Part shown: piece after piece, positions 2,761-57,695 of the stretch
Numbering within the stretch: the first letter of the stretch is position 1
How the letters are laid out: each line of letters starts with the position of its first letter
NCBI RefSeq assembly: GCF_014897705.1
Contig: NZ_JABUXV010000011.1
Span: 124,001-188,000 of the forward strand
Source: Brachybacterium sp. FME24
GTDB lineage: Bacteria > Actinomycetota > Actinomycetes > Actinomycetales > Dermabacteraceae
DNA: 64,000 bases
Direction of reading: 5' to 3'
Translations under genes and position numbers: made by a program
Notes under the pieces: generated by a model
The model's input: only the letters and a program-made list of their open reading frames with translations
The model's database searches: none
What the model was told of the DNA's origin: nothing

Positions 2761-3480
2761 ATGACCTTCGCCGGCGCTCTCGCCTTCCTCGGGCTGGCCG
2801 TGCTCACCATGGACGTGCTCGGCGGCGTCATCGCCACCGGCATCCTCCTGCGGGGCGGTCGCTTCCGGCACCTGCTCGCGTTCTGCGCCGGCTACACGGC
2901 GGTGATCATCCCCGTGACCCTGCTCCTGCATCCCCTGCTCACCGTGCTCGGCACCTGGTTGCGACCGATTCTGCACTCGAACGACGCGATCGGCAGCGTC
3001 GAGGTGGTCGCCGGCCTCGCCCTCGCCGGCTTCGCCCTGCACCAATGGCGCGCCGCGCGCCGACCGCCCCTCCCGCACGGGCGACTCCAGCGGCGCAGCT
3101 CCCCCGCCCGGCTCGCGATGTGGCCGCTGCTCGCCGCGGGCCTCGCCTTCTCCGCGACCGCTCTGGCCGACCCCGCCTTCACCATCGCCGTGGGCATGGC
3201 CGCCCAGGAGGAGTCGCTCCCGCTGCGGATCGCCCTCCTCGTGCTGTGGCACCTCGTCTACCAGGCTCCGCTGGTGGCCCTCACGATCATCTCGGCCGCC
3301 GGCAAGCAGGACCGGCTGGTGCGGCGCATCGCAGACTGGTTCGTCGAGCGCCGACGCCCGCTGCAGGGCGCACTCGCCGCCGTGCTGGCGGTCATCGCGC
3401 TGCTGGTGCTCGGCGACGGCACGATCGCCCTGATCGGCGAGCACGTGCCCTGGCTGCGGCAGCTGCTCTCGCTGCGCTGA
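2761..3480 (+). CDS. GAP/Sap-like six-TM membrane protein
   Basis: A 239-residue integral membrane protein with about six hydrophobic segments (near residues 5-28, 38-60, 75-95, 118-140, 158-178 and 205-230). A basic, arginine-rich loop sits at about residues 96-118. The layout (short N-out helix, LGGVIATGILLRGG, a long basic central loop, a late second half) resembles the actinobacterial GAP family of LysE-superfamily proteins (sulfolipid-1-addressing protein Sap). This assignment rests on topology and is tentative; transport of small polar or lipid-linked molecules is only a family-level guess. The gene is separated by about 180 bases from the amidohydrolase and convergent with the symporter gene. 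Confidence 0.55.
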   Translation: MTFAGALAFLGLAVLTMDVLGGVIATGILLRGGRFRHLLAFCAGYTAVIIPVTLLLHPLLTVLGTWLRPILHSNDAIGSVEVVAGLALAGFALHQWRAARRPPLPHGRLQRRSSPARLAMWPLLAAGLAFSATALADPAFTIAVGMAAQEESLPLRIALLVLWHLVYQAPLVALTIISAAGKQDRLVRRIADWFVERRRPLQGALAAVLAVIALLVLGDGTIALIGEHVPWLRQLLSLR

Positions 3481-3523
3481 GACCCGCCGTCGCACCGGGC
3501 CGTCTCGATGCCGACGATCCCCG

Positions 3524-5029
3524 TCAGCGGGTGCTGCTTCCGGCAGTCTCCTCCTGCGCCTGCTCGATGCGATCGGGGTGCCGCAGGGACAGCAGCCCGC
3601 CCACCACGAAGGTGACGATCACACCGAGCAGCGGGTACCACTGCCAGGCGACCCACACCTCGCCCACGACGTACTTCTCCATGACGAAGAAGAAGGCGTT
3701 CACGGCGACCGCGACCACGAAGGCGATGTTGGCGTCCAGTGCGCGGGCTCGCTTGTTGATGATGCCGAACAGGAACGCGCCGAGCAGCCCGCCGTAGGTG
3801 ATGCCGGCGACGCCCAGGGCGAGCACCACGATGTTGCCCTCGTCGGATCGGAAGATGGTCGCCGGGGCGATGAACGCCAGGCCCCAGCAGATCGTCGCCC
3901 AACGGCCGATCCGCAGCCCCTGCGCATCCGTGATCGGCTCCTTGCGCAGCTTGCCGACCACGTCGGTGACCGTCGAGGAGGACAGCGCCGACAGGGACGA
4001 GGACAGGGTGGACATCGCGGCGGCGAGGATGCCGGCCAGCAGCAGCCCGGACAGACCCGGGGGCAGGGCTTCGACGATGAACAGCGGGAAGATCTCGTCG
4101 TCTCGGGTCAGGCCCAGATCCTGCGGGGTGGCCTGGCGGTAGTAGCCCCACAGGGCGAGGCCCACCAGCAGGAAGATCGCGAACTGCACCACGACCACCA
4201 GGCCGGAGACGATGATCGCTTTCTGCGCCTCGACCTTCGAACGGCAGGCCAGCAGGCGCTGGACGATGATCTGGTCGGACCCGTGGGAGGCCATCGCGAA
4301 GACCGCGCCGCCCAGCAGGGAGGCGAGGAAGGAGTTCTCGCCGCTGAGCTGGCTCTCGCCGATCACGAACAGCTGCAGCTTGCCGGCGTCCGCGGCATCT
4401 CCCAGCCATCCCAGCCCGGTGGTGGAGGCGACCACGAGGATCGCGGCGATCCCGCCGACGACGTAGAGCATCATCTGGATCACGTCGACCCAGACCACGG
4501 CCGTGATGCCGCCGATGAAGGTGTACGCGATCGTGACCACGGCGAGGATCACGGTGATGGCGAAGTAGCCGAGGTCCACGCCCAGGCCCTCGAGGATGAC
4601 CTTCAGCGGGATCGCGGCGGCGAGCACCCGGATCCCGTCGGCCAGCAGCCGGGTGAACAGGAAGGTCACCCCCGCGGTCATCTGGGTGCTGCTGCCGAAC
4701 CGCTTGCCGAGGTAGGCGTAGGCGGTGAGCATCTCGCCGTCGTAATAGCGCGGGAGCATGAAGAACGCGATCACGATGCGCCCCAGGATGTAGCCGAGGC
4801 CGAGCTGCAGGTAGGAGATGTCGCCGAGGTAGCTCATCACCGGGATGCCGATGACGGTCAGGGCGCTGGTCTCGGTGGCGACGATGGACAGGCACACCGC
4901 CCACCACGGCAGGTCACGGCCGCCCAGGAAGTAGCCCTTCAGGCCGGTCTGGCGTCCGCTCAGCTTCAGTCCGAGCCAGGCGGTGGCGACCAGATAGGCC
5001 ACGATCACCAGCAGGTCGATGGTCTGCAT
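3524..5029 (-). CDS. Sodium:solute symporter (SSS family)
   Basis: A 501-residue protein with about 13 membrane helices. Family signatures are visible: YFLGGRDLPWW after TM1, then SIVATETSALTVIGIPVMSY, the long GLGYILGR helix, TFIGGITAVVWVDVIQ, and a GMASHGSDQIIVQRLLA-like stretch around residues 245-265. These place it in the Na+/solute symporter family (Na+-coupled uptake of sugars, amino acids or carboxylates), in the branch with sialic acid and glucose carriers. The exact substrate is not deducible. The start has a strong Shine-Dalgarno sequence (AAGGAG) a few bases upstream. No catabolic gene is adjacent on the same strand. The 280 bases upstream hold no convincing gene. Confidence 0.88.
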   Translation of the reverse strand: MQTIDLLVIVAYLVATAWLGLKLSGRQTGLKGYFLGGRDLPWWAVCLSIVATETSALTVIGIPVMSYLGDISYLQLGLGYILGRIVIAFFMLPRYYDGEMLTAYAYLGKRFGSSTQMTAGVTFLFTRLLADGIRVLAAAIPLKVILEGLGVDLGYFAITVILAVVTIAYTFIGGITAVVWVDVIQMMLYVVGGIAAILVVASTTGLGWLGDAADAGKLQLFVIGESQLSGENSFLASLLGGAVFAMASHGSDQIIVQRLLACRSKVEAQKAIIVSGLVVVVQFAIFLLVGLALWGYYRQATPQDLGLTRDDEIFPLFIVEALPPGLSGLLLAGILAAAMSTLSSSLSALSSSTVTDVVGKLRKEPITDAQGLRIGRWATICWGLAFIAPATIFRSDEGNIVVLALGVAGITYGGLLGAFLFGIINKRARALDANIAFVVAVAVNAFFFVMEKYVVGEVWVAWQWYPLLGVIVTFVVGGLLSLRHPDRIEQAQEETAGSSTR

Positions 5030-5309: not shown

Positions 5310-7058
5310 TCAGTCGCCATCTCCCACGTAGCGGTAGTAGAAACCGGCCCCGCGACGGTTCGCCCGCGATGGTGCCAGTTCTCCCTGCCGCTCGAGCTCC
5401 TGCAGAACAGTGCCGACGTTCGTGCGTTGCGCACCGAGGATGCTGGCCAGCTCGGTCGTGCTGATCCTGCCCCGAGCTCGCGCATAATCACGGGCCACCT
5501 GTTCGCGAGAAGGAACCCTGCCTGCTGCCCCGGCTTCCCGTCGCAGAGCCGTGAGGGAGTCGAACGTCGCGACGTCAATCGCGATGGAAGGCACAGGAGC
5601 CGCGGACGGCGTGCCGTCGATCTCATGACAGACCGGGTGGCCGGCGCGGTGGTGATCCGCCAGTCGCTCCACGGCCTGTCGGGACTCCTCGACCGTCAGC
5701 TGCAGCACGGGAGCGAGGTCGGCCGGGTCCGTCCACCTCTGGACGGACAAGCGATGCAGGACCATGAGGACCCGGAGGTCGCGCCGCGGATCGGGCGAGA
5801 TACCTGCGAGCCACTCGATCCAGCCGAGGTCCGGTCGCTCGCCCGCGAGCACAGTGCGCACGGCGACCCCGTCGATCTCCTCGATCACGGGCAGCGGATG
5901 GCCGTAACGGATCATGTCGGCGAACATGCGATCCACGCCGACGCCCTGCCGCTCAGCGATCCGCAACGTGGCCAGCAGCTGGCTGAGATCCTTGTTCCGG
6001 GAGACCGGAGGGTGGTTGATGATGTTGTCGCTGCGGACTCCGCCGTAGAAGCCTCCCGGGCTCGTCACCCGAAGCGTTCTGCCGATGTGCTCCACCGTCG
6101 TCGGCCCCTCATCGACCCACTCCCGATGGGCTATGCCGTTGACGATCGCCTCGCGCACGGCGCGTTCGGGGAGAGCTCGGACGCGACTGATCACCAGGCC
6201 CTGCTCGACATGGACTTCCGGGTTGTATGCCCGCACCGAGGTGAAGATCTCCGCGAGCTCTTCGAGCACGGAGCGACCTGGCTCATTGAGTCGTTCCTCG
6301 CTGTCGGCTGCGGCACCCGGGCGCCGGATGTAGTCCAATGCCGCTGCTCGTCGCCCCGCGAAGAGCAGCGCCCCGGCGTTGGTGAGGGTCCCGTCATCCT
6401 TGATCACCGCCAGGCGCCGCAACAGGTCCTCGTCAGAGGATCCCGCGAGATCCTCTGCTCGCGGGACACCGGAGTTCTGCAGGAAGTCCCGGGCGATCTG
6501 CACCGCTTGTGCTCGGGCCTGAACTGGCTGGATTCCGCTGCTCTGCGCTGACCAGTCATAGCCCCACGCGCGCGAGCGCCGCTCATGCCACGTCGCCGGG
6601 TCGACATCCTGGCACTGATCTCCGACGCGCCACGTAATCCTGTTCTGCCATCGGATTGGCTCGACGGCGGGTGGACAGCGGATGATCAGAACCCGTGTCC
6701 CACGCACTTCCGCGGGATAGATGACCGTCGTGTATGCCTGGTGCAGCAGCTGGAAGAGACGCACCTGCAGCCAGTCGGCATCGAGATCCGCTCCGACCGG
6801 CGTACCGTCGTTCGCTATCCCCACGATGAGCGCGCCGCCCCCTGGAGTGTTCGCCATGCACGCAGCTTCCTCCGCAAGCTTCTTCGCTGCTGCCTCGTTG
6901 TGCGGGGATCCCGGACGCACCTCTCCGTGCCCACCCCGCCGTCCGGCCTCTTCCTTGAAGTCGAAGAGCCGCCGTTCGGACGGGTTCTCCCCGCTCTCGA
7001 CCGCACGGAGAGCCGCCTCCACGGCGTCTGCCACCGCGTCGATACCGAAAAGTGTCAT
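5310..7058 (-). CDS. Schlafen AlbA_2 domain ATP-binding/DNA-binding regulator (COG2865-like)
   Basis: A protein of about 582 residues. The N-terminal AlbA_2 domain shows the typical run ...FDFKEEAGRRGG..., EEAACMANTPGGGALIVGIANDGTPVGAD, RLFQLLHQAYTTV. The middle region has the HATPase-like block of COG2865 proteins (ALPERAVREAIVNGIAHREW, LRVTSPGGFYGGV, NKDLSQLLATLRIAERQGVGVDRM). The C-terminus has a winged-helix part (RISTTELASILGAQRTNVGTVLQELERQGEL). Such proteins are thought to be transcriptional regulators that also bind nucleotide. The frame is open further upstream, but ATG at 7058 is chosen because AGAAGGGG precedes it and conserved sequence begins there. Two palindromes just upstream overlap the likely promoter, so autoregulation is probable. 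It lies next to an rfb remnant. Confidence 0.85.
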   Translation of the reverse strand: MTLFGIDAVADAVEAALRAVESGENPSERRLFDFKEEAGRRGGHGEVRPGSPHNEAAAKKLAEEAACMANTPGGGALIVGIANDGTPVGADLDADWLQVRLFQLLHQAYTTVIYPAEVRGTRVLIIRCPPAVEPIRWQNRITWRVGDQCQDVDPATWHERRSRAWGYDWSAQSSGIQPVQARAQAVQIARDFLQNSGVPRAEDLAGSSDEDLLRRLAVIKDDGTLTNAGALLFAGRRAAALDYIRRPGAAADSEERLNEPGRSVLEELAEIFTSVRAYNPEVHVEQGLVISRVRALPERAVREAIVNGIAHREWVDEGPTTVEHIGRTLRVTSPGGFYGGVRSDNIINHPPVSRNKDLSQLLATLRIAERQGVGVDRMFADMIRYGHPLPVIEEIDGVAVRTVLAGERPDLGWIEWLAGISPDPRRDLRVLMVLHRLSVQRWTDPADLAPVLQLTVEESRQAVERLADHHRAGHPVCHEIDGTPSAAPVPSIAIDVATFDSLTALRREAGAAGRVPSREQVARDYARARGRISTTELASILGAQRTNVGTVLQELERQGELAPSRANRRGAGFYYRYVGDGD

Positions 7059-7082
7059 GCTAGCCCCTTCTGGCGGCCATCC

Positions 7083-7106
7083 ATACTTTCCAACACAAAA
7101 AAGTAT
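7083..7106. promoter_or_regulatory. Operator-like palindrome 1 over the -10 box of the AlbA_2 gene
   Basis: A 24-bp inverted repeat ATACTTT-N10-AAAGTAT, ending 25 bases before the start codon of the AlbA_2 gene. On the coding strand TATACT (7102-7107) is a good -10 hexamer lying inside the palindrome, so a bound protein would block RNA polymerase. It is A+T-rich in an otherwise G+C-rich region and resembles the second site at 7132-7156. Confidence 0.6.
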
Positions 7107-7131
7107 AGCTCTAGGCCTGGATCGGCCACAG

Positions 7132-7156
7132 CATACTTTTTGCGACAAAAAGTGTG
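7132..7156. promoter_or_regulatory. Operator-like palindrome 2 upstream of the AlbA_2 gene
   Basis: A 25-bp inverted repeat with 11-base arms, CATACTTTTTG-CGA-CAAAAAGTGTG, with a single mismatch between the arms. Its centre lies about 50 bp from that of the first palindrome, and both share ACTTTTT...AAAGT. A pair of like sites around a promoter suggests cooperative binding by a dimeric regulator, most simply the neighbouring AlbA_2 protein itself. Confidence 0.6.
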
Positions 7157-7309: not shown

Positions 7310-7480
7310 GGCATTGCGCGAGCGCCACCAGGCCTCGTGGCGGCGATACCAGTCGATTGTCACGGCCGGCACCGCCTCGAAGGCGGGCATGAGCTGCTTG
7401 GAGACCCTGATGGTCGAGGGATGCGGTCGCAAGCCAGTACCGCCCGCCAGAGAGATGCCGCGCGGAAGGCTCAGTACGTC
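7310..7480 (-). pseudogene. Fused remnant of rfbA 5' end and rfbB 3' end
   Basis: On the minus strand a short open frame reads GISLAGGTGLRPHPSTIRVSKQ, a degraded copy of the RmlA N-terminus (the intact neighbour has GIIMAGGTGSRLHPLTIGVSKQ). It then passes directly into VTIDWYRRHEAWWRSRNAATEGRF, which looks like the C-terminal end of dTDP-glucose 4,6-dehydratase (RmlB). Nucleotides 7381-7470 are clearly similar to 8341-8430, the start of the intact rfbA. The nucleotide-binding and active-site regions in between are missing. This is best read as the scar of a duplication followed by deletion in a dTDP-sugar operon. Confidence 0.7.
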
Positions 7481-7540: not shown

Positions 7541-8431
7541 TCAGACGGGGCGGTCCGCCCGTTCGCGGGCGAGGACGTCCAGCAGGTACCGGCCGTATCC
7601 GGATTTCACGAGCGGTTCGGCACGCTCGCGCAGTTCGTCGTCGTCGAGGAAGCCCATGCGCCAGGCAACCTCCTCCGGGGCGCCGATGGACCGGCCCTGG
7701 CGCTGCTCCACGGTGCGGATCAGGTCCCCGGCCGCGGCCAGGCCGTCGAAGGTGCCGGAGTCCAGCCAGACGGCGCCCCGGGTGAGCACCTCGACGTGCA
7801 GCATCCCGTCCTCCAGATAGGAGCGGTTCAGATCGGTGATCTCGAGCTCTCCGCGGGCGGAGGGCTGCAGCGCCTTCGCGCGCTCCACCACGGTGGCGTC
7901 GTAGAAGTACAGCCCGGGCACCGCATAGTTGGAGCGAGGGCGCGACGGCTTCTCCTCCAGGGCGATCGCTGTGCCGTCCTCCCCGATCTCGACCACACCG
8001 TAGTCGCTGGGATCCCTGACCCAGCAGGCGAACACGGCGGCGCCCTCGAGGTGGCGGAAGCGGCGCAGCTGAGTGCCCATACCGCGCCCGTAGAAGAGGT
8101 TGTCGCCGAGGATGAGCGCGGCCGGCTCACCGGCCAGGAACTCTTCACCGAGCACGAAGGCGCGCGCGAGGCCGTCCGGCTCGGGCTGCACGACGTAGGT
8201 CAGGTGCACGCCGAAGCGGTCGCCGTTGCCGAGGACCCGCTGAAAGGCCACCTGGCCCTCCGGCGTGGTGACGACCAGGATGTCCCGGATCCCGGCGAGG
8301 ATCAGGGTGCTCAGCGGGTAGTAGATCATCGGCTTGTCGTAGACGGGCATGAGCTGCTTGGACACACCGATGGTCAGGGGGTGCAGTCGCGAGCCGGTAC
8401 CGCCCGCCATGATGATGCCGCGCATGCGCAT
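7541..8431 (-). CDS. rfbA: Glucose-1-phosphate thymidylyltransferase
   Basis: A 296-residue protein of the usual RmlA length. It converts glucose 1-phosphate and dTTP into dTDP-glucose, the first step towards dTDP-rhamnose and related cell-wall sugars. The nucleotide-binding motif GIIMAGGTGSRLHPLT, the KQLMPVYDKPMIYYPLS block, LGDNLFYG (metal-binding aspartate), EEKPSRPRSNYAVPGLYFYD and WLDSGTFDGL are all present and intact. The other pathway genes (rfbB, rfbC/D) are not next to it; only the rfbA/rfbB scar follows downstream. The rest of the pathway must therefore be encoded elsewhere or be lost. Confidence 0.95.
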   Translation of the reverse strand: MRMRGIIMAGGTGSRLHPLTIGVSKQLMPVYDKPMIYYPLSTLILAGIRDILVVTTPEGQVAFQRVLGNGDRFGVHLTYVVQPEPDGLARAFVLGEEFLAGEPAALILGDNLFYGRGMGTQLRRFRHLEGAAVFACWVRDPSDYGVVEIGEDGTAIALEEKPSRPRSNYAVPGLYFYDATVVERAKALQPSARGELEITDLNRSYLEDGMLHVEVLTRGAVWLDSGTFDGLAAAGDLIRTVEQRQGRSIGAPEEVAWRMGFLDDDELRERAEPLVKSGYGRYLLDVLARERADRPV

Positions 8432-9422: not shown

Positions 9423-10973
9423 TCAGGAGGGGATCAGGTGGGGGTCGCCGGCCGGTGTGGTGAACCGGGCCGTGAGCTGCTTCGGGGCGGTGTCATCGGC
9501 CTCGATCCAGTCCACGACGTAGAAGCTGGAGACCATCTCCTGCGGGGTCAGGCGCACGTGCACGTAGCCGCGTCGGCCGTCGTAGAGCTTGATGTAGTCG
9601 TGCTGGGTCCAGACCCCGGCGTTCGGATTGGTCTTCGCGCCGTCGCCGTCGGAGCCGACGGAGGTGCAGACCAGCTCCACGCCGACGTTCCCGCGGCCGG
9701 GATCGGTGAAGTCGGCGAGCAGCTCGGCGGCGACGTGCTTGTGGATGTCGCCGGTGAGCATCACCGGGTTCTGGCTCGTGGCCATCGCATCCAGCAGCCG
9801 CTGCCGAGCGGCCGGGTAGCCGTCCCACATGTCGGTGTGGCCCTCCGTGACCGCGGCGACCACGACACCGTTGGCCAGCACGTTCCAGGTCGCCGGGGAC
9901 TCCGCGAGGCGCTGGGTCACCCAGGCCTCCTGCTCCATCCCGAGGATCGTGCGCTCCTCCCGGTACTGGTCCTCGGCATCCACCGGCAGCTGGTCGCGGA
10001 ACTGCCGGGAGTCCAGCATCGAGAACCGGGCGAGGGAGCCGACGTCGAAGCCGGTGGTGATATCCGTATCGGGCCCCTCGGGCAGGGCCTCGATGTCCAG
10101 GGGCATGTTCTCGTAGAACGCCCGGTACGCGACGGCGATGCGGTGGGCGAACAGGTCGTCCGGGATCCCGGTGTCGGAGACGTCGCCCTTGTAGTTGTTC
10201 TGCACCTCGTGGTCGTCCCAGACGACCACGGCGGGCACGCGGGCGTGGACGGCCTGCAGGTGCGGATCGGACTTGAACAGGGCGTAGCGCAGGCGGTACT
10301 GCTCGAGCGTCTCGATCTCGACGGCGTGGGCGGGCCCGACCTCGGCTCCCTGGCGCCACAGGTTCGTCTCGGTGATGCCGTACTCGTAGATGTAGTCGCC
10401 GACGAAGACCACCAGGTCCAGATCCTCCTCGGCGGCGAGGTGCTTGTGGGCCGTGAAATGCCCGTGGTACCAGGCCTGGCAGGAGACGACCCCGACGCTG
10501 AAGGAGTCCGCGTCCGCACCCTCGGCGGGCAGGGTGCGCAGGCGGCCGACGGGGCTGGTCTGCCGGCCCACCGAGAAGCGGTAGAAGTAGTCGGTGGCGG
10601 GCTCGAGACCCTCGACCCGCGGATGGACGGCGTGGGCGAGCTCGGGCTGGGCGAGCGCCTGCCCCCGTGCCACGATCTGGCGGAACTCGGCGTCGCGGGC
10701 GACGTGCCAGCGCACGCTGAGGGGATGGAGGTCCATGCCGCCGTGCCCGTCCTCGGCCAGGGGCTCCGGCGCCAGGCGGGTCCACAGCACGGCGCCGTCC
10801 GGTCGCGGCGCGCCGCTGGCGACGCCGAGGGAGAACAGGCCCTCACGCTGCGGCGGCGGATCCGCGTGCGCCTCGGGGGCGTGGATTCCCAGCGCGATCA
10901 CGGCGGCGGAGGCAACGCTGACCTGGAGCAGACGGCGGCGGCTGAGGGGTGCTGGCGCGGCGGATGCCGGCAT
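9423..10973 (-). CDS. phoD: PhoD-family alkaline phosphatase/phosphodiesterase, Tat-exported
   Basis: About 516 residues. The N-terminus has a Tat signal: SRRRLLQ, a hydrophobic stretch (VSVASAAVIALGIHA) and an AHA cleavage site. The mature part carries the PhoD N-terminal domain (FSLGVASGAPRPDGAVLWTRLAP) and the metallophosphatase core with Fe/Ca ligands in VVFVGDYIYEYG, AVVVWDDHEVQNNYKGD and VMLTGDIHKH. PhoD enzymes release phosphate from phosphodiesters, including teichoic acids, outside the cell. The frame is open further upstream, but ATG at 10973 follows GGGAGA and places the Tat motif correctly. Pho-box control is plausible but I did not find a clear box. Confidence 0.9.
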   Translation of the reverse strand: MPASAAPAPLSRRRLLQVSVASAAVIALGIHAPEAHADPPPQREGLFSLGVASGAPRPDGAVLWTRLAPEPLAEDGHGGMDLHPLSVRWHVARDAEFRQIVARGQALAQPELAHAVHPRVEGLEPATDYFYRFSVGRQTSPVGRLRTLPAEGADADSFSVGVVSCQAWYHGHFTAHKHLAAEEDLDLVVFVGDYIYEYGITETNLWRQGAEVGPAHAVEIETLEQYRLRYALFKSDPHLQAVHARVPAVVVWDDHEVQNNYKGDVSDTGIPDDLFAHRIAVAYRAFYENMPLDIEALPEGPDTDITTGFDVGSLARFSMLDSRQFRDQLPVDAEDQYREERTILGMEQEAWVTQRLAESPATWNVLANGVVVAAVTEGHTDMWDGYPAARQRLLDAMATSQNPVMLTGDIHKHVAAELLADFTDPGRGNVGVELVCTSVGSDGDGAKTNPNAGVWTQHDYIKLYDGRRGYVHVRLTPQEMVSSFYVVDWIEADDTAPKQLTARFTTPAGDPHLIPS

Positions 10974-11143
10974 GGGGTCTCCCGGTGTCGTGGGCAGGTT
11001 CCGGGCGAGCCTAGGGGGGCGTGGTAGCGCTCCCATGAACACGGGGCGACCATTGCGGTAAAAGGATTCGACCCGCTGCTGTCGTGCTGTCTCGGCCCCA
11101 CCGTCACCTCGGCGGCGCCGGCAACCGGACGTATTCTGGTCCG

Positions 11144-12358
11144 ATGCATCTCTCCCCCGATCTCGTGCGGTCCCTGCCCAAAGTCGCCCTGCACGACCAC
11201 CTCGACGGTGGGCTGCGACCGGCCACCGTGCTCGAGCTGTGCGCCGAGTTCGGCCTCGCCCCACCGCCGGTGGCCCCGGCCCGCGACGCCGCCGGCGACG
11301 TGGATGTCCCCGGCGGGGCCGTGAGCCCCACCGCGCAGGACGTGGCGGACTGGTTCCAGGCCGCCGCGGATTCTGGCTCCCTGCCCGCCTACCTCGCCAC
11401 CTTCGATCGCACCGTCGCCCTCATGCAGACCGCTCCGGCCCTGCAGCGGATCGCTCGCGAATTCGTGGAGGACATGGTCGCCGACGGGGTGGTCTATGCC
11501 GAGACCCGGTGGGCGCCCCATCAGCACACCGCCGGCGGGATCCGCCTGGACCAGGCGGTGCAGGCGGTCCAGGACGGGCTCGACGAGGGCGTCGCCGCGG
11601 CGGAGGCCGCCGGGACGAGGATCATCGTCGGTCAGCTGCTGTCCTACCTGCGCCACCTCGACCCCACCGACGATCTGGTCGAGCTCGCCCTCGCGCGCCG
11701 CGGGTCCGGCGTGGTGGGCATCGACCTCGCCGGCCCCGAGGCGGGCTTCCCCGCTTCGCGATTCCGCGCCCAGTTCGATCTCGCCCGCCGCCACGGGATC
11801 CACGTGACGATCCACGCCGGGGAGGGCGACGGGCCCACCTCGATCGCCGATGCCCTGGACTGCGGGGCGCAGCGGATCGGCCACGGCGTGCGGATCCTCG
11901 AGGACGTCACCGCCGCGACCAGCACCCGGACCGGCCACGCGGCTCCCGTCGGCGCCGGCGCTCCTGCCGGAATCGACCCACCTTCAGGCGACGCGGACGA
12001 CGCACCCCCGCGCCTCGGGCCGATCGCCGCCCGGGTGCGCTCCGAGCGAGTCTGCCTGGAGGTGTGCCCCAGCTCGAACCTGCAGACCGGCGCCGCTCAG
12101 GACCTCGCCGCTCACGCCGCCGGGCCTCTGCACGCACTCGGTTTCACCGTGGCTCTGAGCTCGGACAATCGCCTGATGAGCCGCACCAGCACCTCACGGG
12201 AGATGGCCCTGGTCGCGGAGACCTTCGACTGGGGCCTCGAGGATCTCGAGCAGGTGGTGCTGACCGGTCTCGATGCGGGCTTCGCGCCGGCCGAAGCACG
12301 CCAGGCGCTGCGCGAGGAGGTCGTGCTTCCCGCGTTCCGCGCCGCGCAGGGACGATAG
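11144..12358 (+). CDS. add: Adenosine deaminase
   Basis: 404 residues; hydrolyses adenosine to inosine in purine salvage. The family motifs are intact: KVALHDHLDGGL (zinc HxH), VVYAETRWAPHQ, GIDLAGPEAGFP, VTIHAGEGDG with the zinc histidine and catalytic glutamate region, RIGHGVRI, LEVCPSSNLQT, and ALSSDNRLMSRTS with the zinc/catalytic aspartate. A low-complexity Ala/Gly/Pro insertion of about 35 residues (near residues 262-296) lies between RIGHGVRI and the CPSSN block and is unusual. ATG at 11144 is preferred over the in-frame 11084 start because conserved sequence begins at once. The gene stands alone, divergent from phoD. Confidence 0.93.
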   Translation: MHLSPDLVRSLPKVALHDHLDGGLRPATVLELCAEFGLAPPPVAPARDAAGDVDVPGGAVSPTAQDVADWFQAAADSGSLPAYLATFDRTVALMQTAPALQRIAREFVEDMVADGVVYAETRWAPHQHTAGGIRLDQAVQAVQDGLDEGVAAAEAAGTRIIVGQLLSYLRHLDPTDDLVELALARRGSGVVGIDLAGPEAGFPASRFRAQFDLARRHGIHVTIHAGEGDGPTSIADALDCGAQRIGHGVRILEDVTAATSTRTGHAAPVGAGAPAGIDPPSGDADDAPPRLGPIAARVRSERVCLEVCPSSNLQTGAAQDLAAHAAGPLHALGFTVALSSDNRLMSRTSTSREMALVAETFDWGLEDLEQVVLTGLDAGFAPAEARQALREEVVLPAFRAAQGR

Positions 12359-56610: not shown

Positions 56611-57695
56611 TGAACGGCACTCTCTCCCTGCGTCCGCGCGGACTGTGGTTGACGACCTCCCTCGAGCTGCGTCAGCGAGTCCGCTCGGTGCGCTGGTACG
56701 TGGCCCTCGGAGTGTTCACGGTGGTGCTGTTCGGCATCGGTCTCCTCGCCCTGGCCCCTGCACTCGTCAGTTCCGAGTGGGGCGCGGTCGCCCCGGTCGC
56801 ACGGGTCATGTTCAGCCTGCAGATGCTGCTCGTGCTGTTCGCGATGCTGCTGGTCACACCCGCCCTGTCGGCCGGGTCGATCAATGGCGACCGCAGCGCC
56901 GGCACCCTGGCCACGCTGCAGGCGAGCCTGCTCAGCCCGCTCGAGATCGTGCTGGGCAAGCTGCTCGCCGGGCTGATCACCGGGCTCGCGTTCCTGGTCC
57001 TGGCGATGCCGTCGGCGCTGCCGCTCGCGCTGCTGGGACACGTCAGCGTGTTCTATCTGGTGCGGGTCGTGCTGATGATCTGCTTCCTGACGTTCTGCGT
57101 CACGGCGATCGGTCTGGGGCTCTCGGCCATCACCCAGCGACAACTGGGCTCCGTGGTGCTGGCCTACGTGCTGGTGTTCGGCGTGACCGTGGTCGGTCCG
57201 ATCCTGTGGGGCGTCTCCGCGACGCTCCTCCATCAGGAGCGCGAGGTCACCGGCTACCACACCGAGTACGACGACTACAGCTCGATGACCGGTGGGGTCT
57301 GCGTCGCGGAGGCCGAGGTGCGTCCGGTCTGGCGGATGGATCTCACCCAGCCCCTCATGTGGCCGAACCCCGTCGTGATGCTGGCCGAGACTGCTCCGGG
57401 CCAGGACATGACGGCGAGCTGGGAGGACATGGACGCCGAGAACTCCCCCGACGTGCTCTCCCTCCTGAAGTTCGGGATGCGTGAACTCTCGAGTTCACCG
57501 CACCCTTCGGACTACAACAGCTGCAGCCCGGGGGACGAGAACTACCCGGAGGATCTCGGGTCCCCGAGGTCGATCCCGATGTGGCCGATGGGCGTGGGAG
57601 CGTGGGGCCTCCTCGCGCTCGGGTCCTTGATCCTGGCCGTGTTCCGCCTGGCCGTCCCGATCAAGCATCTCGGCAAGGGCACGCGCATCGCCTGA
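56610..57695 (+). CDS. ABC-2 type exporter permease
   Basis: 361 residues. Six helices with the ABC-2 pattern (VTPALSAGSINGDRSAGTLATLQASLLSPLEIVLGKLLAGLITGLAFLVLAMPSALPLALLGHV). A polar stretch of about 105 residues (near residues 213-318, with YHTEYDDYSSMTGG and SDYNSCSPGDENY) lies between the fifth and sixth helices and is probably extracellular. It has two cysteines that could form a bond. It partners the preceding ATPase. Confidence 0.88.
   Translation: MNGTLSLRPRGLWLTTSLELRQRVRSVRWYVALGVFTVVLFGIGLLALAPALVSSEWGAVAPVARVMFSLQMLLVLFAMLLVTPALSAGSINGDRSAGTLATLQASLLSPLEIVLGKLLAGLITGLAFLVLAMPSALPLALLGHVSVFYLVRVVLMICFLTFCVTAIGLGLSAITQRQLGSVVLAYVLVFGVTVVGPILWGVSATLLHQEREVTGYHTEYDDYSSMTGGVCVAEAEVRPVWRMDLTQPLMWPNPVVMLAETAPGQDMTASWEDMDAENSPDVLSLLKFGMRELSSSPHPSDYNSCSPGDENYPEDLGSPRSIPMWPMGVGAWGLLALGSLILAVFRLAVPIKHLGKGTRIA

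Follow-up and report, generated by a model that had tools for sequence, protein, structure and literature searches.

A conserved palindrome with a helically phased half-site as the probable autoregulatory operator of a Schlafen/AlbA_2-ATPase-winged-helix gene in Brachybacterium

Little seems to be known about the control of bacterial Schlafen-like genes. Fusions of Schlafen RNases with a minimal histidine kinase and a winged helix-turn-helix (wHTH) domain have been described beside BREX loci as backup effectors of BREX, and passages of the same paper report this domain make-up in at least 1,017 taxa beside BREX-type loci and discuss the proteins as antiviral RNases (PMC12839542). The same make-up is found in the product of a gene, termed the AlbA_2 gene here, that lies in a 64,000-nucleotide stretch of the Brachybacterium sp. 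FME24 genome (contig NZ_JABUXV010000011.1, positions 124,001 to 188,000; the whole stretch is termed the window herein) and is preceded by two palindromes. Whereas those passages (PMC12839542) are silent on operators, the window gene has a conserved candidate operator, and the nuclease role of its product is putative. No BREX genes were noticed beside the window gene, where no search aimed at BREX was made. The best structural match to the window protein by far is PDB entry 3lmm (E about 1e-47, template modelling score of 0.5 to 0.6), the DIP2311 protein of Corynebacterium diphtheriae, which is also a sequence relative over residues 14 to 482 (E 1e-74); we take both to belong to COG2865. The domains of 3lmm are placed differently from those of our model (root mean square deviation of about 16), and the tables name it only as an uncharacterised protein, without a binding site, in contrast to the window gene with its conserved operator. 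The passages of the open-access literature that we found, among the matches listed, describe no binding site of an AlbA_2/COG2865 protein, which agrees with an earlier reading of the DNA alone (the sequence-only reading herein), according to which such sites are hardly known. RptR, a small autorepressor of a type I restriction island (79 residues, four helices, 6-bp palindromes), resembles the window gene, according to the passages available, in having several palindromic sites that overlap the −10 box and are conserved across many homologues (PMC12255303), with autorepression being our proposal for the window gene; it differs in that the window gene encodes a 582-residue Schlafen/ATPase protein and has palindromes of 25 to 28 bp plus a phased half-site.

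We propose, with a probability of roughly three in four, that the two palindromes serve as the operator of the AlbA_2 gene and that the AlbA_2 protein itself binds them, as a repressor dedicated to its own promoter. The elements concerned are as follows.

5310..7058, minus strand: AlbA_2 + HATPase_c_4 + C-terminal winged-helix gene, 582 amino acids, ATG at 7058, stop codon at 5310-5312 (translation, Pfam).
7082..7107, minus strand: proposed proximal operator, TATACTTT-N10-AAAGTATG, left arm 7107-7100, right arm 7089-7082 (read from the sequence; counterpart palindrome in 14 of 14 orthologues, imperfect in L057).
7132..7156, minus strand: proposed distal operator, CACACTTT-N9-AAAGTATG, with the right arm at 7139-7132 as the conserved upstream half-site (half-site in 14 of 14).
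7102..7107, minus strand: candidate −10 box TATACT, within the left arm of the proximal operator (read from the sequence).
7064..7071, minus strand: candidate ribosome-binding site AGAAGGGG (read from the sequence).

On the minus strand, which is the coding strand of the AlbA_2 gene, the proximal palindrome reads TATACTTTTTTGTGTTGGAAAGTATG (7107-7082, arms of 8 and a spacer of 10) and the distal one CACACTTTTTGTCGCAAAAAGTATG (7156-7132, arms of 8 and a spacer of 9); because of the unequal spacers, the two sites differ in geometry. Both contain ACTTTTT...AAAGT and their right arms begin 50 bp apart, where the sequence-only reading had located them, and the 50-bp spacing turned out to be a conserved unit. 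Within the window, ACTTT-N8-10-AAAGT is confined to these two palindromes, as is CATACTTT.

Judged by itself in its own genome, the window palindrome has weak statistics. In the 250-bp upstream region (L009), the best pair of 8+8 arms matched at 7 of 8 positions, which was equalled by 45% of 60 shuffles, and the same single-genome test was not significant for L035, L036, and L057 either (60%, 52%, and 100% of shuffles, respectively, the last with a best pair of 6 of 8). The case rests on comparison, because the place, symmetry, and spacing of the palindrome are conserved over 14 orthologues, which lifts it above chance. The footprinting set comprised every orthologue of at least 45% identity returned by genome searches (58, 38, 394, 22, 5, and 245 genomes, overlapping), that is, 14 genes including that of the window, 13 of them intact and one truncated (G003). 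The 13 others, 45 to 82% identical to the window protein, come from the same genus (G004, G022, G002, and G003), Mobilicoccus caccae (L033), the genomes G092, G201, and G514, and five genomes of one family (f38), so that the set spans four families plus Mobilicoccus. A scan of 84,980 species, limited to close relatives of the gene, returned one locus, L033. The gene is sporadic, being present at E ≤ 1e-60 in 4 of 38 genomes of the genus, among them that of the window, and as a fragment in G003.

A palindrome lies ahead of the start codon in all 14 orthologues, with the left arm 31 to 50 bp ahead of the assigned start and the right arm beginning 31, 28 to 29, or (L057, start uncertain) 13 bp ahead of it. 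The letters of the arms differ between lineages. They are CATACTTT/AAAGTATG in G002, G004, and G022 (with TATACTTT as the proximal left arm in the latter two), CATCCTTT/AAAGGATG in both palindromes of G003 (the proximal one having a single mismatch), CATAATTT/AAATTATG in L033 and L034 and, in a weaker form, in L035 and L057, and GTTAYACTTT/AAAGTGTAAC in f38 (right arm AAARTGTAAC), so that the core pairs by lineage are ACTTT/AAAGT, CCTTT/AAAGG, AATTT/AAATT, and GTTAYACTTT/AAAGTGTAAC. The spacer between the 8-bp arms is 10 in the same genus (9 in the distal palindrome of the window), 11 in L033, L034, and L035, and 10 or 11 in L057; in f38, ACTTT and AAA[GA]T are 8 apart. Both arms change together across lineages, which marks a symmetric (two-fold) protein-binding site, and such a site with compensating changes is present at the gene's own promoter in 14 of 14 orthologues. 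The suggestion of the sequence-only reading that these are operators of the AlbA_2 gene, which it regarded as refuted if promoters of orthologues lacked the motif, is thereby supported, outside the genus in changed letters.

Inverted repeats were also scored from −160 to +20 by base-composition log-odds against 152 neighbour-gene controls, whose start positions were set mechanically. Twelve of the 14 orthologue upstream regions lay above the control 95th percentile, with L035 and L057 below it; in L037, the best-scoring inverted repeat was another, GC-rich one. As two of the eight strongest controls were the operator itself viewed from a divergent open reading frame (ORF), the threshold is conservative. 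The orthologues are related, and the rank-test P values should therefore not be read as those of independent events.

All 14 orthologues have a second copy of the proximal right arm, equally oriented, that begins 50, 51, or 52 bp farther upstream, about five turns of B-DNA, and agrees with the arm in 6 to 8 of 8 or 8 to 9 of 10 letters; an equally good match among seven random positions of the same upstream region was obtained with a printed frequency of 0.000 each time (3,000 draws). In the window, G004, G022, and G003, the second copy belongs to a full palindrome; in G002, L033 to L040, and L057, it stands alone as a half-site. A third half-site is present another 51 bp upstream in G004, G022, and G003. 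All five f38 half-sites have a G for the T of the right arm (AAAGTGGAAC, AAAGTAGAAC, or AAAATAGAAC versus AAARTGTAAC), which weakens their pairing with the left arm. In G003 (L079, contig C98, about 4161-4313), only about 45 codons of the AlbA_2 gene remain, and these are still preceded by two palindromes and the third half-site; an ORF with HTH_3 and nucleotidyltransferase domains lies convergent to it at 3038-3628.

The domains of the window protein that might bind the palindromes, sense a signal, or act as a nuclease were located as follows.

6603..6905, minus strand: SLFN_AlbA_2 domain, residues 52 to 152 (Pfam, E 4e-12).
5871..6074, minus strand: HATPase_c_4 (GHKL ATPase) core, residues 329 to 396 (Pfam, E 1e-12).
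5313..5510, minus strand: C-terminal winged helix, residues 517 to 582, the proposed operator-binding domain (predicted model, structure matches).
5426-5388, minus strand: recognition helix, residues 545 to 557 (predicted model).

Both Pfam domains scored above their cutoffs (47.0 bits versus 25.3 for SLFN_AlbA_2 and 48.1 versus 26 for HATPase_c_4), while an HTH_Crp_2 match remained below cutoff and no NCBIfam profile scored above cutoff. An AlphaFold2 model built on 29 sequences (mean predicted local distance difference test score, 88.9) contains two winged-helix-like parts, at residues ~428 to 495 and 517 to 582; the latter has helices at 518 to 529, 534 to 541, and 545 to 557 and strands at 561 to 563 and 575 to 577 (the wing) and matched many winged-helix proteins in structure comparison (Z 8.6 to 9.6). 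In the same comparison, residues 8 to 167 matched the SAMD9 tRNase domain (Z 8.8), residues 235 to 408 matched histidine kinase catalytic domains (Z about 9), and Schlafen N-domains were matched at marginal E values (1e-3 to 2e-2). The ATPase residues E303, N307, S333-P334-G335, and G374 are invariant in the 29 sequences, which makes nucleotide control plausible. E28, D33, and K35, just N-terminal to the Pfam SLFN_AlbA_2 domain, are each conserved in at least 90% of them. In rat SLFN13, according to the passages available, the acidic pair E205/E210 is essential and D248 is the third residue; E28-x4-D33 of the window protein appears to resemble this pair, as read from the sequences and not from a superposition (PMC5862951). 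Because of this likeness of E28-x4-D33-x-K35 and of the fusions reported as BREX backup effectors, we prefer an autorepressed RNase effector as the biological role, which is in part speculative. PADLOC gave only partial matches, to three pAgo-system models, and its defence-system label was not used; a plasmid or phage origin was likewise set aside, the protein having no match in plasmids (E ≤ 1e-30) or phages (E ≤ 1e-20).

In the mechanism that we propose, two subunits would sit symmetrically on the proximal palindrome, over the −10 box and the expected transcription start, via their C-terminal winged helices. A further subunit would occupy the half-site ~51 bp upstream, or a second dimer in the window genome, G004, G022, and G003; this half-site, which faces almost the same side of the helix, is located immediately upstream of the expected −35 position and would help to hold the promoter. 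RNA polymerase would thus be shut out, and repression would be confined, entirely or almost so, to the gene itself. Opening of this clamp would be timed by the GHKL-type ATPase domain together with the Schlafen-type domain, with the result that a nuclease of the Schlafen type, potentially harmful, would be made on demand only. Repression is the natural outcome because the left arm contains the candidate −10 hexamer, so that a dimer covers both the −10 position and the expected start. The hexamer at this position is TATACT, CATACT, CATAAT, or TAYACT in the orthologues, and CATCCT in G003. We consider it unlikely that the main effect of the protein is instead activation of its promoter, or a switch in both directions, with the half-site (about −45 to −38 from the predicted start) replacing a missing −35 contact. 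Such a role would fit a region in which a scan detects no consensus promoter and a half-site placed as regularly as the palindrome itself; it fits poorly with a palindrome that covers the candidate −10 box and the predicted start in the orthologues as well, since a site in that position normally blocks polymerase.

Autorepression by the AlbA_2 protein also agrees with the number of targets. Clade-specific patterns searched across the 14 whole genomes found the operator at the AlbA_2 locus in 13, and there were three off-locus matches (one each in G000, G022, and G201) versus five for reversed control patterns. In the genome of the window, the strict N10 full-arm pattern with up to three mismatches occurred at the AlbA_2 locus only; a looser pattern did no better than its control (7 forward and 6 reverse matches), and a regulon built on these was discarded. 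The wider regulon that the sequence-only reading had envisaged was thus not borne out, copies elsewhere in the 14 genomes not exceeding background in a search that left lone half-sites and the N9 full-arm form aside. When the neighbourhoods were compared, the AlbA_2 gene was matched in 11 other loci (it was counted in 12 of 14, as the ORF filter missed the L083 gene and the truncated L079 gene), while any other ORF was matched in at most three, a number reached among L084 to L087, which belong to one genus. ORFs around the gene are shared within a genus, and across genera there are just scattered pairs of 24 to 49% identity, such as window ORF 9423-11264 with L086. Since neighbour ORF families are not generally shared between genera, the general binder cannot be an adjacent regulator. 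Together with the near-single locus per genome, this points to the AlbA_2 protein as the most likely binder and to the promoter of its gene as the most likely sole target. A palindromic site as such does not identify its binder, and another host transcription factor might control the gene, which we regard as quite improbable: a general regulator is expected to show further copies and a stable motif, whereas the site occurs at essentially one locus per genome, beside no generally shared neighbour, and its letters change between lineages together with the AlbA_2 protein.

It is very improbable that the inverted repeats act as RNA, through alternative leader hairpins (the left arm pairing with either the half-site or the right arm) or a terminator-like hairpin at 7174-7157 on the minus strand (one found by consensus scan versus 0.1 expected): a 111-nucleotide minus-strand piece does fold better than 200 of 200 shuffles (z −4.8; z −2.0 for a 61-nucleotide piece), as expected of any inverted-repeat pair, but there is no Rfam match up to E 0.1, the f38 half-sites carry the pairing-weakening G, the only candidate −10 box lies inside the proximal palindrome, so that most of it would be untranscribed from there, and the spacing stays at 50 to 52 bp although the intervening letters drift, as would fit phasing on the DNA helix.

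Several observations weigh against autorepression through these sites. The TATACT hexamer that the sequence-only reading took for a −10 box is indeed inside the proximal palindrome, but the consensus scan of the region yielded no sigma-70 promoter, and the T-run of the terminator-like hairpin is the left arm of the distal palindrome; given these two findings, the upstream half-site might serve activation, or the distal site might have some other use. In L033 and L035, the half-site equals the arm in just 6 of 8 letters, and the third half-site of G003 is AAAGTATG, whereas the palindromes there read AAAGGATG. The palindrome of L057 is imperfect and its start codon uncertain, and the pattern search gave no match within three mismatches in G514. 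There may be extra weak targets, as lone half-sites and the N9 form lay outside the genome-wide search. Among the more distant relatives considered below, 6 of 11 clusters had at best a minority of members that exceeded the control 95th percentile, and four of the six had none, with start codons that are uncertain.

The changes in the operator may be linked to the recognition helix. The Mobilicoccus protein (L033) is 61% identical to that of the window, yet its operator is of the AATTT type, as in L034, L035, and L057, which are ~50% identical. Twenty-two alignment columns over the whole protein had a residue that was invariant in the same genus and absent from L033, L034, L035, and L057, with those four either set apart from f38 or uniform; residue 545, the first of the recognition helix in the predicted model, was the sole one in 517 to 582. 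It is R in the window protein and three relatives (arm AAAGTATG), S/P/P/G in the AATTT group (arm AAATTATG or a weaker form), and T/Q in f38 (arm AAARTGTAAC). This pattern is suggestive of a link between residue 545 and operator type, and against it stand the 13 related sequences from which it is drawn and the 21 other columns outside the C-terminal winged helix that separated the groups equally. Tentatively, bacterial Schlafen-ATPase-winged-helix proteins could be one-gene modules with effector, sensor, and repressor in one polypeptide, in which each lineage's winged helix sees essentially its own promoter only (here through a palindrome and a half-site phased five turns upstream), ATPase sensing frees the gene and arms the nuclease, and operator and recognition helix coevolve, specificity being switched by residue 545 (R for AAAGTATG, a small residue for AAATTATG). 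With an operator defined at base level, its spacing known, one target per genome, and a candidate specificity residue, a "predicted transcriptional regulator" becomes testable, and the operator offers a readout for finding the signal that Schlafen/ATPase/winged-helix proteins sense.

Some more distant AlbA_2/HATPase/wHTH genes appear, from their upstream sequences, to have different, clade-specific palindromes at their own promoters. Thirteen of 26 such homologues scored above the 95th percentile of the 152 controls for inverted repeats. Grouping at 45% identity gave 12 clusters, 11 of them additional to the studied one. Five of these 11 had half or more of their members above the threshold (two being pairs with one above and one a singleton), and two further clusters had one member above it. 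AGTTTTATATCACCCTG-N6-CAGGGTGATATAAAACT is exact in G374, G166, and G397, with close forms in G252 and G075, a TTTCAAAGTTGTTTAAACAACTTTGAAA palindrome is present in L015, and arrays of TCACTCTnnACAGTGAG-like units are found in L017, L020, and L027. SLFN_AlbA_2 and HATPase_c_4 were both above cutoff in all 10 proteins checked (two of the studied group and eight distant ones).

In L017 (~540-640), L020, and L027, which represent another AlbA_2/HATPase subfamily with MarR-like C-terminal matches, the TCACTCTnnACAGTGAG-type palindromic runs reach near the start codon. A sister AlbA_2 clade shows a different operator geometry, with an inverted pair AGTTTTA...TAAAACT around the promoter region that is exact in 4 of 14 upstream regions read (L089, L091, L092, and L093) and varied in L090, L094, L095, and L013.

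Next to the AlbA_2 promoter of the window, an 87-bp stretch at 7377-7463 (minus strand) is 83% identical to 8337-8423, the 5′ end of the neighbour gene 7541-8431, which is rmlA-like by reading of its sequence, not by a family search; the stretch is a decayed partial duplicate between that gene and the promoter. In L004 (1498-1523; G000 contig C18, ~56927-56952), a Fic-family ORF starts 12 bp downstream of a palindrome, GTAACACTTTTCTACGAAAGTGTTAC, which resembles the f38-type operator with a shorter spacer; the ORF encodes an HTH domain near the C terminus and is perhaps another self-regulated gene.
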